Origin: Cellulomonas terrae
GTDB lineage: Bacteria; Actinomycetota; Actinomycetes; Actinomycetales; Cellulomonadaceae
Assembly: GCF_007990265.1 (NCBI RefSeq)
Contig: NZ_BJWH01000001.1
Location: forward strand, 124,001-188,000
Direction: 5' to 3'
DNA length: 64,000 nucleotides
Both the position numbers and the translations under genes were made by a program. The notes beneath the pieces are model-generated. The model saw only the letters and a program-made list of their open reading frames with translations, was not told the origin of the DNA and searched no databases. Shown here piece by piece: positions 22,371-27,808 of this stretch; within the stretch, counting starts at the first letter, position 1, and the number at the start of each line of letters is the position of its first letter.

Positions 22371-22865
22371 TCAGACGTCGACGGGGTGCGCACTCACGGC
22401 GGCGCGCGGCGGGTCGACCACGATGTCGTCGGTGCCGTCGATCGACTCACCGGCCAGCCGCAGCCCGACGTCCACGAGAGACACCCGCCGCAGGCTCGGC
22501 ACCTCGGCGAGGTCGAACCAGGCCACCGCATCGGTGCTGCCGTCGGCCTCGTCGCGCAGCTCGCCTCCGACGACGTGCGCGCGATAGAGGATGCGCAGCC
22601 ACTGGAAGGCGCCGAGCGACGGATCGACGAGCTCGCCCGCCGGGACCAGGACCGAGTCGATCCCCAGCAGGCCGTCGAGCTCGACACGGTAGCCCGACTC
22701 CTCGAGGACCTCGCGCACGGCCGCGTCGGCCGGGTCCTCCCCCGGCTCGATGCCTCCGCCGGGCAGCGTCCACCCGCCGACGACCTCGTCGGGCCAGTGC
22801 GGGAGCAGGACGCGCCCGTCCTCGACGATCACGGCGTAGGACGCCACGCGCAGCCGCACCGTCAC
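22371..22865 (-). CDS. NUDIX hydrolase, copy 2 of a tandem pair
   Basis: A 164-residue NUDIX protein with the complete box GGGIEPGEDPADAAVREVL followed by EESGYRV. The GTG start overlaps the stop of the response regulator by four bases, so it is translationally coupled to the two-component system upstream. It is a close paralogue of the gene at 21805: both share ASYAVIVE/AAYAVVVE, LLPHW and a FxDLAxVPxLxRVxLVDxxLR tail. The duplication is recent enough to be obvious by eye. A housekeeping pyrophosphatase or a signalling nucleotide hydrolase are both possible. Confidence 0.88.
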   Translation of the reverse strand: MTVRLRVASYAVIVEDGRVLLPHWPDEVVGGWTLPGGGIEPGEDPADAAVREVLEESGYRVELDGLLGIDSVLVPAGELVDPSLGAFQWLRILYRAHVVGGELRDEADGSTDAVAWFDLAEVPSLRRVSLVDVGLRLAGESIDGTDDIVVDPPRAAVSAHPVDV

Positions 22866-23518
22866 AGCAGGCGTCGCGCCGCCGCCCAGCGCGTCAGCTC
22901 GTGCCGGCTCGACAGCTGGAGCTTGCGCAGCACCGCGGAGACGTGGGTCTCGACCGTCTTGATCGAGATGAACAGCTCCGAGGCCACCTCGCGGTAGGAG
23001 TACCCGCGGGCGATGAGGCGCATGACCTCGCGCTCCCGGGCGGACAGGCGGTCGAGCTCGTCGTCGCCGATCGCCACGTCCCCCGCGGCCGCGCCGAACG
23101 CGTCGAGCACGAACCCGGCCAGCCGTGGGGAGAAGACCGCGTCCCCGCCGGCCACGCGGCGGACCGCGTCCGACAGGTCCGTGCCGTCGATCGCCTTCGT
23201 GACGTACCCGCGGGCGCCCGCGCGGATGACCGCGACGACGTCCTCCGACGCGTCCGAGACGGACAGCGCGAGGAACCGGGTCTCGCCCAGCAGGTCGGTG
23301 CAGGCCTTGATGACCTCGGCGCCACCGCCACCGTCGCCCCCGGGCAGGTGCACGTCGAGCAGCACCACCGGCGGCTTGAGCTCACGGACCAGCCGGATCG
23401 CCTCGTCGACCGAGTCCGCCTCGCCGACGACACGGACCCCCGCGTCGAGGGACGCCTTCACACCGGTCCGGAACATGTGGTGGTCGTCGACCAGCACCAC
23501 GTCGACCGCTTCGCTCAT
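22862..23518 (-). CDS. LuxR-family response regulator of the PspC two-component system
   Basis: A 218-residue NarL/LuxR-type regulator. The receiver domain has the acidic pair in VLVDDHHMF (about 9-12), the phospho-acceptor Asp in VVLLDVHLPGGDG (about 55) and the Lys in YVTKA (near 108). The C-terminal HTH runs LSAREREVMRLIARGYSYRE to SIKTVETHVSAVLRKL. It should be phosphorylated by the kinase encoded just upstream, whose stop overlaps this ATG by four bases. Like many actinobacterial PspC-type systems it probably controls envelope-stress genes, including the divergent operon at 24956 (inference). Confidence 0.93.
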   Translation of the reverse strand: MSEAVDVVLVDDHHMFRTGVKASLDAGVRVVGEADSVDEAIRLVRELKPPVVLLDVHLPGGDGGGGAEVIKACTDLLGETRFLALSVSDASEDVVAVIRAGARGYVTKAIDGTDLSDAVRRVAGGDAVFSPRLAGFVLDAFGAAAGDVAIGDDELDRLSAREREVMRLIARGYSYREVASELFISIKTVETHVSAVLRKLQLSSRHELTRWAAARRLL

Positions 23519-24819
23519 GACACGACTCCTTGTTCGTCCCCCGCGCGGACCGGCACCACCAGGTGCACCTCGGTCCCACGCTCCGGGCTGCTCGTCACCT
23601 TCGCCGTACCTCCACGACGCCGCACGCGCCCGATGATCGACTCGCGCACCCCGAACCGGTCGGTGCCCACCTCGTCGAGGTCGAACCCGTCGCCGTGGTC
23701 CCGCACGAACACCTCGACCTCCGACGACCCGACCTCCAGGTACAGCGAGACGGGCGGGCGCCCGTGCACCACCGCGTTGACCAGCGCCTCGCGCGTGGCC
23801 TGCAGCAGGGCCTCGGTGTCGGCGTCGGGCACGCGGTCGCCGACGACGACCGACTCGATCGCCACCGGGTCCCCCGTCGGGCCGGACCGGGAGTCCTCGA
23901 CCTCGGCGACGATCCCCCGCAGCGCCGCCGCGACCGACGTGCCCGGCGCGGGACGGTCGTCGTAGAGCCACTCGCGCAGCTCCCGCTCCTGGGCGCGCGC
24001 CATGCGGGCGACCTCCGCGGAGTCGTCGGCCCGCGAGCGGATGAGGGCGAGGGTCTGCAGCACGGAGTCGTGCAGGTGGGCGGCGATGTCGGCACGCTCC
24101 GACTCCCGCGCGCGGGCCGCGCGCTCGTCGCCGAGCTCGCGCACCAGCCGCAGCCACCACGGCGTCAGGACGAGGGCGACGCCGAAGAGCATCACGACGG
24201 CGGCGATGATCGACTGCGCCAGGGTCGCGGCCTCGACGCCCTCGCCCGACGCGAGGCCGACGAACAGCAGCACCCCGACACCGGCCAGCAGGATCCCCCC
24301 GGCGACCCGCAGCAGGCTGACCGGCGTCCGGCCGCCCGCGCGGTCCTTGAGGCGGCCGCGCTGCACGGCGTCCAGCTGGCTCCACGCGAGCCAGAGGCCC
24401 GCCAGGACGATCACCGCGGGCAGCAGCCAGTCCGCCTGCACGTCCGCACCGGACCGGACCGCGATCAGCAGGGTCGCCGCCACGACGAGGACGCCGCCGA
24501 TGGCGATATCCGTCACGGGGAGGCGGCGGCCCGGCTCGACGATCGCCTGCCGTCGCGCGAGCCTCGTCAGCGTGCTCGGTCGCACCTCCTGCGCCGCATC
24601 CGCCGGGTCGCCGGCCGGGATCGCGAGCCACCAGAAGACGTACAGCACGAGGCCGACGCCGGCGACGGGGGTGAACAGGACGAACGCGAGCCGCACCAGC
24701 GCGACCGGAACGTCGAGGTGTGCGGCGAGCCCGAGCGCGACACCACCGACGACCCGCCCGCGCGCGGGTCGGCGCAGCGGGAGCCGGCGGGTCGCGGCGA
24801 CGGTCGGAGCGGGGTGCAC
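23515..24819 (-). CDS. Sensor histidine kinase with N-terminal PspC domain
   Basis: A 434-residue membrane kinase. Residues about 10-70 form a PspC domain (RVVGGVALGLAAHLDVPVAL, then VRLAFVLF), followed by three or four more membrane segments to about 240. The dimerisation box is HisKA_3: DIAAHLHDSVLQTLALI with the phospho-accepting His near 265. The ATPase domain has ATREALVNAVVHG (N box), RDHGDGFD (G1) and a final GTEVHLVVPV (G2 region). The start is uncertain: a GTG at 24819 fits the PspC domain, and a GTG at 24888 would add 23 residues. It is divergent from a second PspC protein, and direct TTCAGGG repeats lie in the 136-bp region between them. Confidence 0.9.
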   Translation of the reverse strand: MHPAPTVAATRRLPLRRPARGRVVGGVALGLAAHLDVPVALVRLAFVLFTPVAGVGLVLYVFWWLAIPAGDPADAAQEVRPSTLTRLARRQAIVEPGRRLPVTDIAIGGVLVVAATLLIAVRSGADVQADWLLPAVIVLAGLWLAWSQLDAVQRGRLKDRAGGRTPVSLLRVAGGILLAGVGVLLFVGLASGEGVEAATLAQSIIAAVVMLFGVALVLTPWWLRLVRELGDERAARARESERADIAAHLHDSVLQTLALIRSRADDSAEVARMARAQERELREWLYDDRPAPGTSVAAALRGIVAEVEDSRSGPTGDPVAIESVVVGDRVPDADTEALLQATREALVNAVVHGRPPVSLYLEVGSSEVEVFVRDHGDGFDLDEVGTDRFGVRESIIGRVRRRGGTAKVTSSPERGTEVHLVVPVRAGDEQGVVS

Positions 24820-24955
24820 GGTCCGATCGTCACATGCCCTGAGCCGTTCCGGGGTCGCGTCCGGGGTCGGTTCAGGGGTGCCGCGCACCAGGTTCAGGGT
24901 GAGGTCAGGGGACCACCCGATGCCGCGCGCTGGCCGCGAGCGTCAGGATCGAGAC

Positions 24956-26383
24956 ATGGACACGACCACCCCGACCGGCCCTGCCGGACCCGACCCGGCG
25001 CCGGGCAGCTCCGCACCGGACCCGACCCCGACGCCGGGGAACGCGCCGAACAGCTTCTTCGCCGCGGTGCGCCGCCTCGCGATCACCCGCTCCGACGACC
25101 GCTGGATCGGCGGCGTCAGCGGCGGCCTCGGAGACCGGTTCGGCATCGACCCGCTGCTGGTGCGCGGCATCTTCTTCGCGACGCTCCTGCTCGGCGGGCT
25201 CGGGCTCGTCGCGTACGGCGTCGCGTGGGCACTGCTGCCCGAGCGTCGCGACGGCCGCATCCACCTCGAGGAGATGATCCAGGGCCGCTTCGACATCGCC
25301 CTGCTGGGCGCGCTGACGTTCGTCATCGTCGGCTTCGGCCGCGGCGACAACTGGTTCTTCTTCTGGGCCCCGCCCGAGTGGGTCCAGGCCATCCTCTGGG
25401 TGTCCTTCATCGGCGGCGTCGTGATGCTGATCGCCATCGTCTCCAACCAGGCCTCGAAGCCGCGACCGCCGAGCGCCCCGTACGCGCCTCCGGCGACGTA
25501 CCCGGCGGCGACGTACCCCGCGGCGACCTACCCGGCCGCGACGTACCCCACCGCGCCCGCCAGCTCCTCGGTCCCCGCCTACGGCGTCCCGCCCGTGCAG
25601 CCCGCCCCGCCGGTCGGGGACACCCCGCCCGCGCCCCCGGCGTGGTCGGCCTCGTACGCTCCCGCGCCGCCCGCCCCCGCACCGCGACCGGTGCACCAGC
25701 GGCCCGTGACCCCGCCGCGTCCCCGCACCCCGGGTGCCGGGGTCGGCACGGTCGGCGTGGTCGTCGCGCTGAGCCTGCTCAGCCTCGCGGTCCTGCTCGT
25801 CGCGGAACGCCAGGGCGAATTCACCGGACCCGTCGGCCTGACGGCGCTCGGCATCGGGATCGTGCTCTGCGGCCTGGGCATCATCGTCTCCGGCTTGCGT
25901 GGCCGGACCAGCGGTGGCCTCGGCGGGCTCGCCGTGGTCGGCATCCTCGTCGCGGTGCCCGTCGGTGCCGTGCAGAACGCCACGTGGGTCTGGTCGGGCG
26001 ACTCGCAGCACGACTTCTCCGCCGACGGCACCGTCGTCGTGACCGACCGCACCGACGCCGAGAACGGCTGGTCGGTGGGCTTCGGGGACGTCACGATCGA
26101 CCTCACCGGGGTGCCCATGACCTCCGAGACCCTCGAGGTCCCCATCTCGCTCGCGGCCGGTGACCTCACGGTCGTCGTCCCCAGCGACGCCAGCATCTCC
26201 GCCGACGTCGACGCCGGCGCCGGCACCGTGCGCTGGGACGTCGACGGGGAGACCAAGAGCGTGGACGGCGTCGGCCTGAGCCCTCGCACCTTCACCGCCG
26301 GCGCCATCGACGACGACGGACCCCAGCTCGCGCTGCAGGTCCAGATCGGCGCCGGCGACGTCTCGATCATCGAGGAGAACTGA
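24956..26383 (+). CDS. PspC domain membrane protein with Pro-rich linker and LiaF-like C-terminus
   Basis: A 475-residue membrane protein. An N-terminal PspC domain (about 40-105; WIGGVSGGLGDRFGIDPLLV) is followed by two helices. A Pro/Ala/Tyr-rich linker (about 165-265) contains four perfect ATYPA-type repeats. Then come three helices (about 265-345) and a beta-rich domain that resembles the LiaF/DUF1707 C-terminal domain, with repeated LTVVVPSDASISADVDAGAG. Such proteins partner with PspC-type histidine kinases in envelope-stress sensing. It is divergent from that kinase gene and overlaps the next start by one base. Confidence 0.88.
   Translation: MDTTTPTGPAGPDPAPGSSAPDPTPTPGNAPNSFFAAVRRLAITRSDDRWIGGVSGGLGDRFGIDPLLVRGIFFATLLLGGLGLVAYGVAWALLPERRDGRIHLEEMIQGRFDIALLGALTFVIVGFGRGDNWFFFWAPPEWVQAILWVSFIGGVVMLIAIVSNQASKPRPPSAPYAPPATYPAATYPAATYPAATYPTAPASSSVPAYGVPPVQPAPPVGDTPPAPPAWSASYAPAPPAPAPRPVHQRPVTPPRPRTPGAGVGTVGVVVALSLLSLAVLLVAERQGEFTGPVGLTALGIGIVLCGLGIIVSGLRGRTSGGLGGLAVVGILVAVPVGAVQNATWVWSGDSQHDFSADGTVVVTDRTDAENGWSVGFGDVTIDLTGVPMTSETLEVPISLAAGDLTVVVPSDASISADVDAGAGTVRWDVDGETKSVDGVGLSPRTFTAGAIDDDGPQLALQVQIGAGDVSIIEEN
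25493..25552 (+). repeat. Four tandem 15-bp repeats encoding ATYPA
   Basis: Four in-frame 15-bp units (gcgacgtacccggcg and variants) inside the PspC protein gene, encoding ATYPA three times and ATYPT once. They lie in the flexible linker. Synonymous changes between units show selection on the peptide rather than a very recent expansion. Confidence 0.9.
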
Positions 26384-27024
26384 TGTCCACCGAGAAGACC
26401 CCGCGCGACGCCGACGAGACGCTCGCCCTGCCGGTGACCAACCCGGAGCCCACGACGGACACGTCGACCGACGACGACACCACCGTGATCGCCGCCGACG
26501 ACACCGCGGTGCTCCCGACCGACGCCGACACCACCGTGATCGCCGCGGACGACACCGCGGTGCTCCCGACCAACGCCGAGCCGACCGCACCGCACGTCGA
26601 GGACACCGCGGTGCTCGCGACCGAGGAGTCCGAGCCGCGCGTCGACGAGACGCGAGCGCTGCCGGCGGCGGACGAGTCCCGCCCGTACCCGAGCACCTCG
26701 GCGTGGTCGACGCCGGAGGAGCCCGCCGCGTACACGTCGCCCATCGGGGCGCTCTACACGCCGACCGACCGGGTCGCACCCGACCCGGTCACCGATCCCG
26801 CCCCCGTCGTGGAGCCGGCACCGGCGGACCCGCCCCGCCGCCGGCTCCGCGTCGGGACCGTGGTCTGGGGCCTGGTCATCGCCGCGATCGGCGTCGGCCT
26901 GCTCGCGTGGGCGGCCGGCTTCGCGATCGACCTCCAGCTGGCGATGATCGTGCTGCTCGCGGTCGCCGGCACGTCGCTGCTGGTCGGCTCGATCGTCAGC
27001 GGAGCCCGCGCCGCCCGCCGCTGA
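26383..27024 (+). CDS. Membrane protein with a Thr/Asp-rich repetitive N-terminal region
   Basis: A 213-residue protein, no family recognised. Residues 1-150 are acidic and unstructured, with the sequence pattern (D/E)-T-x-(A/V)-(L/I)-(P/A) occurring seven times between about 11 and 95, for example DETLALP, DDTTVIA, DDTAVLP and EDTAVLA. Two perfect 17-residue repeats (DTTVIAADDTAVLPTDA) lie at about 32-65. Basic residues RRRLR at about 151 precede two membrane helices (about 158-177 and 183-202). The start shares one base with the stop of the PspC gene, so the two are coupled. The motif resembles threonine kinase acceptor or FHA-binding sites (inference). Confidence 0.8.
   Translation: MSTEKTPRDADETLALPVTNPEPTTDTSTDDDTTVIAADDTAVLPTDADTTVIAADDTAVLPTNAEPTAPHVEDTAVLATEESEPRVDETRALPAADESRPYPSTSAWSTPEEPAAYTSPIGALYTPTDRVAPDPVTDPAPVVEPAPADPPRRRLRVGTVVWGLVIAAIGVGLLAWAAGFAIDLQLAMIVLLAVAGTSLLVGSIVSGARAARR
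26476..26577 (+). repeat. Two tandem 51-bp repeats
   Basis: Units at 26476-26526 and 26527-26577, nearly identical at the DNA level (differences at a few third positions and the final codons), encoding DTTVIAADDTAVLPT followed by DA or NA. They duplicate the threonine motif of the membrane protein. Confidence 0.9.
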
Positions 27025-27096: not shown

Positions 27097-27669
27097 TCAG
27101 GCCTTCGGGCCCGTGGGGGCCGGTGGTGGCGTCGTCGACGAGGTCGGTGCCGGCGGCGCGGTCGGCCTCCCGGCAGGGACCGGGTCCGGGTAGCTCGACG
27201 ACCCGCCGGACGCCGTGGCCGACGAGATCACGGCACCGCCGGCGGCGGCCGCCTTGCGCAGGGCCCACCCGATGAGGATGAACACCACGCCGATGCCCAC
27301 CACGAGCAGCGCGACCCCGAACGCGACCACGGACGTGAACAGCGAGGCCCGCAGGAACGACGCCGTCATGACGGTCTGCCGGGTCGGGTCGTCCTGGTCG
27401 AGCTCGGCGTAGGTCTTGCCGTCCGAGGCCTCCAGCGCGTGCGTGTTGATGATGTCGGCCTGGAACCAGGCCTCCCACGGCGTGTCGACCAGCTGGCCGC
27501 CGAACGCCTGGGCGTCGTCCGAGACGGTGATCTTCTCGGCGGCGAGGTTGCTGGCAACCGCCCCCCAGGTCACACCACCGGCGATGATGAAGATGATCCC
27601 GAAGATGATCGTCAGCAGCCCCAGAACGCGGACCGTCTTCGAGCTCCCCGTGGTCGTGGTCGTCGTCAT
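27097..27669 (-). CDS. Two-helix membrane protein, actinobacterial, function unknown
   Basis: A 190-residue membrane protein. Helix 1 spans about 16-38 (LLTIIFGIIFIIAGGVTWGA), a 75-residue external loop follows with EKITVSDDAQAFGG and LDQDDPTRQTVM, helix 2 is about 116-138, and a Pro/Thr-rich tail ends the protein. Proteins of this shape are common in actinobacteria and often annotated loosely; I recognise no activity. The ATG at 27669 follows GGGGAG; the open frame continues upstream, but without a start context. It converges on the Thr/Asp-repeat protein gene across a strong terminator. Confidence 0.75.
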   Translation of the reverse strand: MTTTTTTGSSKTVRVLGLLTIIFGIIFIIAGGVTWGAVASNLAAEKITVSDDAQAFGGQLVDTPWEAWFQADIINTHALEASDGKTYAELDQDDPTRQTVMTASFLRASLFTSVVAFGVALLVVGIGVVFILIGWALRKAAAAGGAVISSATASGGSSSYPDPVPAGRPTAPPAPTSSTTPPPAPTGPKA

Positions 27670-27808
27670 GTCTCCCCTTCCGAACCCCAACGGACGGGTC
27701 CGAACCCCCTGGACCCGGATAGGCCGCGAGCGACCCATGACAAAGCGTCCAACAGCACGACTGTAGTGGGATCTGACCTGGACGAATACGGCGAATCGCC
27801 GGGAGTCG

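Follow-up and report, generated by a model that had tools for sequence, protein, structure and literature searches.

Why does a small membrane protein, encoded directly behind a PspC-type gene, carry the same short threonine motif seven times in its tail? The locus lies in a 64-kb window (the whole stretch of 64,000 nucleotides that was analysed) of the Cellulomonas terrae genome, and the original prediction had proposed that the motifs form an array of kinase acceptor or FHA-binding sites which may link threonine-kinase signalling with envelope stress.

The array gene and its PspC/LiaF-like neighbour

The features of the locus are as follows.

22862-23518, minus strand: response regulator with REC and LuxR-type HTH domains (Pfam, NCBIfam)
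23515-24825, minus strand: divergent histidine kinase with an N-terminal PspC domain, whose start may be 24888 (Pfam, NCBIfam)
24956-26383, plus strand: PspC domain protein with a putative LiaF-like C-terminal domain, upstream of the array gene with a one-base overlap (Pfam, NCBIfam)
26383-27024, plus strand: array protein P0001, 213 aa, with an acidic, disordered N-terminal tail and a helical membrane hairpin (ORF list, model)
26416-26664, plus strand: seven [DE]-T-x-[AV]-[LI]-[PA] motifs at T13, T33, T41, T50, T58, T75 and T90 (motif count)
26419-26421, plus strand: codon of T13 in DETLALP, invariant in 8 of 8 aligned sequences (alignment)
26476-26577, plus strand: tandem 51-nt unit in two copies (26476-26526 and 26527-26577), with two base differences and one amino acid difference
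26734-26757, plus strand: TSPIGALY, the second block invariant in the 8 aligned sequences, in which T118 makes T-x-x-I without acid at -1 or -2 (alignment)
26836-26850, plus strand: basic RRRLR ahead of the hairpin, a positive-inside cue (sequence)
26851-27018, plus strand: helical region, residues 157-212, the predicted membrane hairpin, conserved through the family (profile matches, model)

In TGATG (26381-26385) the stop codon of the PspC gene runs into the ATG of the array gene, which begins at 26383, and GAGGAG sits just 5' of this ATG. Since the start of the array gene lies within the PspC stop, the two genes are probably translationally coupled. The link to a PspC protein, part of the original prediction, is supported by relatives: each of the 113 loci examined (113/113) has a PspC/LiaF-like gene ahead of the array gene in the same orientation, and these are the loci from which the tail counts given below were made. 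Because of this constant linkage the PspC/Lia stress module is the most likely client of the array protein. The product of the upstream gene gave a PspC match of 64.5 bits, and its C-terminus came below the cut-offs for LiaF-like_C (27.8 bits against 29) and NCBIfam LiaF (28.9 against 57). The histidine kinase matched PspC (55.8 bits) and HATPase_c (31.0 bits), and the adjoining response regulator matched Response_reg and GerE, all over cut-off. The linker of the PspC protein holds a 15-bp tandem repeat (25491-25555) encoding repeated ATYPA. On the other side of the array gene, the convergent neighbour (27097-27738, minus strand) encodes 213 aa, judged by eye to be a membrane protein, with no Pfam or NCBIfam match.

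The array protein itself matched no curated family in Pfam or NCBIfam at E 0.001, so that its hairpin was assigned neither to LiaI-LiaF-TM nor to another known membrane family, and inspection by eye revealed no signal peptide. Its hairpin has RRRLR on the N side and ARAARR on the C side; because basic residues flank it on either side (positive-inside rule), we infer that both ends are inside and that the tail is cytosolic. A predicted model, built from an 8-sequence alignment only (mean pLDDT 56.5), showed pLDDT below 50 at residues 22-97 and a single helical region at residues 157-212, and this low-confidence model found no fold match in the PDB. The model is consistent with an accessible, disordered context for the array. 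The invariant TSPIGALY block is placed between the array and the membrane.

The motif count was exactly seven, as originally stated for this reading frame, whose coordinates and strand were also right; all seven motifs lie in residues 12-94 and have I, L or V at +3. The two 17-residue repeats (residues 32-48 and 49-65), which had been called perfect, are indeed in tandem, but they are identical at 16 of 17 residues, with one D/N difference, and two base differences separate the underlying 51-nt copies. When the tail was shuffled 200,000 times, no shuffle held more than two strict motifs and 83 shuffles reached that number; five strict motifs were still left when the duplicated unit was collapsed. 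Genome-wide, the GC-coded motif pattern gave 55 matches, whereas its reversed control gave 6. Of the 55, 6 fall inside the array gene in a span of 204 bp; elsewhere in the genome listing, no two same-strand matches come within 1 kb of each other. These results show that the seven-motif array is not due to chance.

A general motif excess in ordinary proteins was also considered and rejected, being absent from the other 44 proteins of the window: together these had 24 loose motifs against 27.8 expected, and the strict motif occurred once among them, in a set taken from a crude gene call (45 proteins) that missed the PspC gene.

The motif in the genus, the family and the order

Relatives of the array protein turned up in nine named records, every one of them Cellulomonas, and a homologue was present in 78 of the 81 genomes of the genus. 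The tails of these relatives were read using the conserved membrane hairpin as anchor, which gave 73 tails from the 78 genomes with a match (L027, L037, L048, L083 and L091 were omitted, no start being found, and the starts of L070, L073, L075, L087, L092 and L093 were set by hand). Acid-T-x-x-[LI] occurred 162 times in the 73 tails against 17.1 expected (sd 3.9), compared with 0 occurrences of acid-S-x-x-[LI] against 6.7 expected (sd 2.5). In a logo built on all 1166 Thr of these tails, D stood out at -2 (z 14.7) and both Leu and Ile stood out at +3 (each with z about 20; Phe and Met weakly), as did Q at +1, V, R or K at +2 and P at +4; the only other Leu/Ile excess listed was Ile at -6 (z 6.8). 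The corresponding Ser logo had neither Leu/Ile at +3 nor acid at -2.

The repeat units vary by species (for example TQVLP, TRPLP and TAVIE), which suggests that evolution has probably rebuilt the motif more than once. Each genus tail holds 0 to 9 motifs; three or more were found in 25 of the 73, and 20 had no acid-T-x-x-[LI], 19 of these 20 measuring at most 68 aa. Among 8 aligned close sequences the T13 and T41 columns are invariant, and units in the middle of the array have been gained and lost. The original prediction had staked itself on conservation of the repeat region in length or motif in related genomes; to judge from these comparisons, the motif is conserved, but neither the length of the array nor its copy number is.

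Beyond the genus, a hairpin profile picked up the gene in all 25 genera (25/25) and in 210 of the 221 genomes of the family. For the motif counts outside Cellulomonas, 40 of 132 matches from 17 of 24 genera were hand-chosen from those listed, two tails (L169 and L170) being trimmed by hand at GTG. The 40 tails had 65 acid-T-x-x-[LI] sites against 6.9 expected, 14 of the 17 genera having one or more, and 2 of the Ser version against 3.4 expected; when seven residues were tried at the acceptor place, Thr alone was enriched. When the order was sampled, 104 of 248 genomes, those of the family included, had the TM core, and 15 tails from outside the family, out of 85 matches, showed a small motif excess (10 against 1.7, five of them in one tail). 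The tails of relatives are not independent samples, so that the z values are too high, and agreement between genera is the safer evidence for selection. Judged by the sequence comparisons, selection maintains the motif across the family as a signal that uses Thr only and has Leu/Ile at +3.

In the portions available of the published accounts, FHA domains are described as strictly requiring pThr, with the ELM ligand motif pTxx[ILV] (PMC8786283), and as telling pThr from pSer (PMC3146460); Rv0020c followed pThr and not pSer in one study (PMC4238996). The Mycobacterium tuberculosis PknA-dependent Thr logo, as given in the available part of its source, has Leu or Val at +3, acid at -1 and at -3 to -6, Pro at +2 and basic residues at +4 (PMC7164672). 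The likeness to kinase and FHA sites that had been proposed therefore holds in part: by sequence the array motif fits the FHA ligand pTxx[ILV], and it agrees with the PknA logo at +3 and in having acid upstream, but the acid positions differ (mainly -2 here) and Pro is at +4 here and at +2 there. The +3 Leu/Ile taken alone cannot separate selection by a kinase from selection by FHA domains.

Since the exclusive use of Thr, the [LI] at +3 and the predicted disorder all agree with an FHA ligand, we favour, with some confidence, the view that the array protein is a membrane-anchored, intrinsically disordered, multisite pThr docking tail of an actinobacterial PspC/Lia-like envelope-stress module. 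The Thr sites could instead be kinase substrates only, providing bulk negative charge on a membrane-adjacent tail with no FHA reader. The PknA-dependent logo, with its upstream acid and Leu at +3 (PMC7164672, as available), and the wide variation in copy number, as expected of a charge meter, both agree with this. Serine, on the other hand, would serve for charge and is nevertheless absent from the acceptor place (0 against 162 Thr in the genus, 2 against 65 in the other genera), and this exclusion matches the pThr/pSer discrimination of FHA domains; we consider an array without a reader unlikely.

Protease tails, kinase linkers and the genomic set of kinase and FHA genes

An HtrA-like trypsin/PDZ protease encoded in the same genome carries three TQPLP in its N-terminal tail.

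L216:1-1578 = G000:C1:309745-311322, minus strand: HtrA-like protease (Pfam)

In the genus, 30 protease matches were found, 29 were taken up and 23 tails were obtained; these had 55 T-x-x-[LI] sites against 7.8 expected, compared with 0 against 2.4 for Ser, and 22 of the 23 tails carried the motif. Because acid was present at -1 or -2 in 14 of the 55 sites, only T-x-x-[LI] is common to the protease and array tails.

Juxtamembrane linkers of kinases also showed an excess. In 32 linkers from 13 genomes (L105-L110 and L269-L296, obtained from 37 kinase loci, one being trimmed to 7 residues by the membrane-helix rule) T-x-x-[LIM] occurred 59 times against 22.0 expected, with Ser at 10 against 7.4, and 11 sites against 5.1 were left when acid and [LI] were required. 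When the linkers were grouped by linker start, two TQ-x-[LIMF] were present in 12 of 13 PknB-like linkers, the 13th having been shortened, all 11 linkers of a second group had TVALPIG (11/11), and T-x-x-[LIM] was found in 0 of 5 PknA-like linkers. Since these groups, mostly two, consist of orthologues, the linkers represent a few conserved sites and not many independent ones. The linkers of the kinases of this genome alone had no significant excess (3 against 1.3, P 0.14).

The genome gave 9 kinase and 7 FHA matches, and no kinase or FHA match lies within the 64-kb window. One gene cluster has the order fhaA-fhaB-pstP-rodA-pbpA-pknA-pknB, in which the names RodA, PbpA, PknA and FhaB were assigned by eye and position. 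Its FhaA has FhaA_N plus FHA, its FhaB an FHA domain, its phosphatase PP2C and its PknB PASTA domains; FhaA matched the solved TB39.8/Rv0020c domains and the kinase the solved PknB. A GarA-like FHA protein (L101:1404-1868, minus strand) has an N-terminal DTTMSF, which we take to be comparable to the GarA/OdhI phosphosite ETTSVF.

These occurrences raise the possibility, which we hold as a tentative extension, that T-x-x-(L/I)-P is a common pThr address tag of Cellulomonadaceae-type bacteria, by which the PspC-linked hairpin protein, the HtrA-like protease and the juxtamembrane linkers of PASTA-type kinases would be drawn by one kinase/FHA system into one phosphorylation-dependent envelope cluster, its strength set by motif count. 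The same occurrences could also reflect a phosphorylation-independent docking motif on cytosolic tails of envelope proteins, with a partner left unspecified. Such docking would suit a motif that two unrelated envelope proteins share with kinase linkers. It would also suit the dispensable acid of the protease tails (14/55) and the enriched Pro at +4, a feature missing from both the FHA and the PknA accounts in the parts of those sources available. Exclusion of Ser suits a phospho-motif better, and the genome has FHA and kinase genes; docking without phosphorylation is accordingly quite improbable.

Proposed function and known systems

If the array protein is a multisite pThr docking tail, Ser/Thr kinases, PASTA-type first, would phosphorylate several Thr in (D/E)-T-x-x-(L/I). 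The resulting pThr-x-x-(L/I) sites may be bound, several at once, by FHA proteins, among which FhaA is the first candidate reader and FhaB and the GarA-like protein are others, and the PP2C phosphatase would reverse the modification. The cluster so formed could alter signalling of the neighbouring PspC-LiaF-like protein and of its histidine kinase and response regulator. Confidence decreases along this chain: it is quite likely that the array Thr are phosphorylated, recognition of the phosphorylated array by FHA domains is slightly favoured, and an effect of the array on PspC/Lia output is conceivable but rather doubtful.

Two further explanations were considered. The tail could be a low-complexity, slippage-prone linker without function, its repeats a by-product of tandem duplication, as the near-identical 51-nt duplication here, the repeat units in other species and the unconserved tail length might suggest. 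Yet T and the +3 L/I persist while the units differ between species, the enrichment is specific to residue and offset, T13 and T41 are invariant in the 8 aligned sequences and five strict motifs survive collapsing of the duplication, making this reading very improbable; simple slippage or composition was rejected by the shuffles and the offset-specific logo. That the tail lies outside the membrane, Thr/Pro-rich for O-mannosylation (26 Thr and 24 Pro in residues 1-154), is hardly credible: the basic residues that flank the hairpin point inside, and glycosylation is not generally expected to fix Leu/Ile at +3 or to exclude Ser.

In the literature examined a route from PASTA kinases to envelope-stress regulators in Actinobacteria was not established, and a Thr-only motif on the partner gene of a PspC/Lia module would be a concrete candidate wire between the two. 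The motif predicts further clients from sequence alone, and the natural differences between species in motif number offer a graded series for multivalency.

The original prediction knew of no described system with this layout. For the layout as a whole this stands, the combination of Thr-motif tail, PspC/Lia module and FHA not having been found in the open-access literature searched; both halves, however, are already known: a PspC/Lia module has been described (PMC11237479), and so has an FHA-bearing membrane protein, Rv1747, that clusters in a kinase-dependent way (PMC9312465). Searches of the same literature with motif strings including TQPLP, TQVLP and TRPLP gave no bacterial-kinase or FHA title among the matches listed, nor was Cellulomonas mentioned in the phosphoproteome literature among the matches listed. 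In human cells, MDC1 has repeated T-Q-x-F sites that are read by the FHA domain of RNF8; it shares with the array a repeated Thr motif with a hydrophobic residue at +3, but it is eukaryotic, acts in DNA damage and depends on another kinase.

The actinobacterial PspA-free Lia-like module, in which Toastrack is on the PspC gene "in some cases", has in common with this locus the PspC-histidine kinase, the REC-HTH regulator and a divergent PspC gene, whose C-terminal domain is here only putatively LiaF-like, as far as the available text goes (PMC11237479). The locus differs in its third gene with a Thr-motif tail, which is absent from the module description in that text, and FHA is unmentioned in the main text of the paper (PMC11237479). 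For the FHA side, FhaA is recruited by the PknB juxtamembrane domain and binds phosphorylated CwlM, according to the available part of PMC6180346. The array would resemble the PknB juxtamembrane domain, CwlM and MurJ in that phosphorylated segments of envelope proteins are there read by FhaA, which this genome also encodes; two Thr are named for CwlM in that part (PMC6180346), compared with seven in the array protein.

The nearest functional analogy to the array protein appears to be Rv1747 of M. tuberculosis, an ABC transporter in which two FHA domains are joined by a disordered linker and which forms condensates and membrane nanoclusters (PMC9312465, as available). Its FHA-containing cytosolic part condenses more readily when phosphorylated by PknF and disperses with PstP (PMC9312465). 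Both are membrane proteins with a disordered cytosolic part, predicted in the case of the array protein, but as the available text describes it Rv1747 carries FHA domains of its own, whereas the array tail holds candidate ligands only, so that any FHA domain would act in trans.
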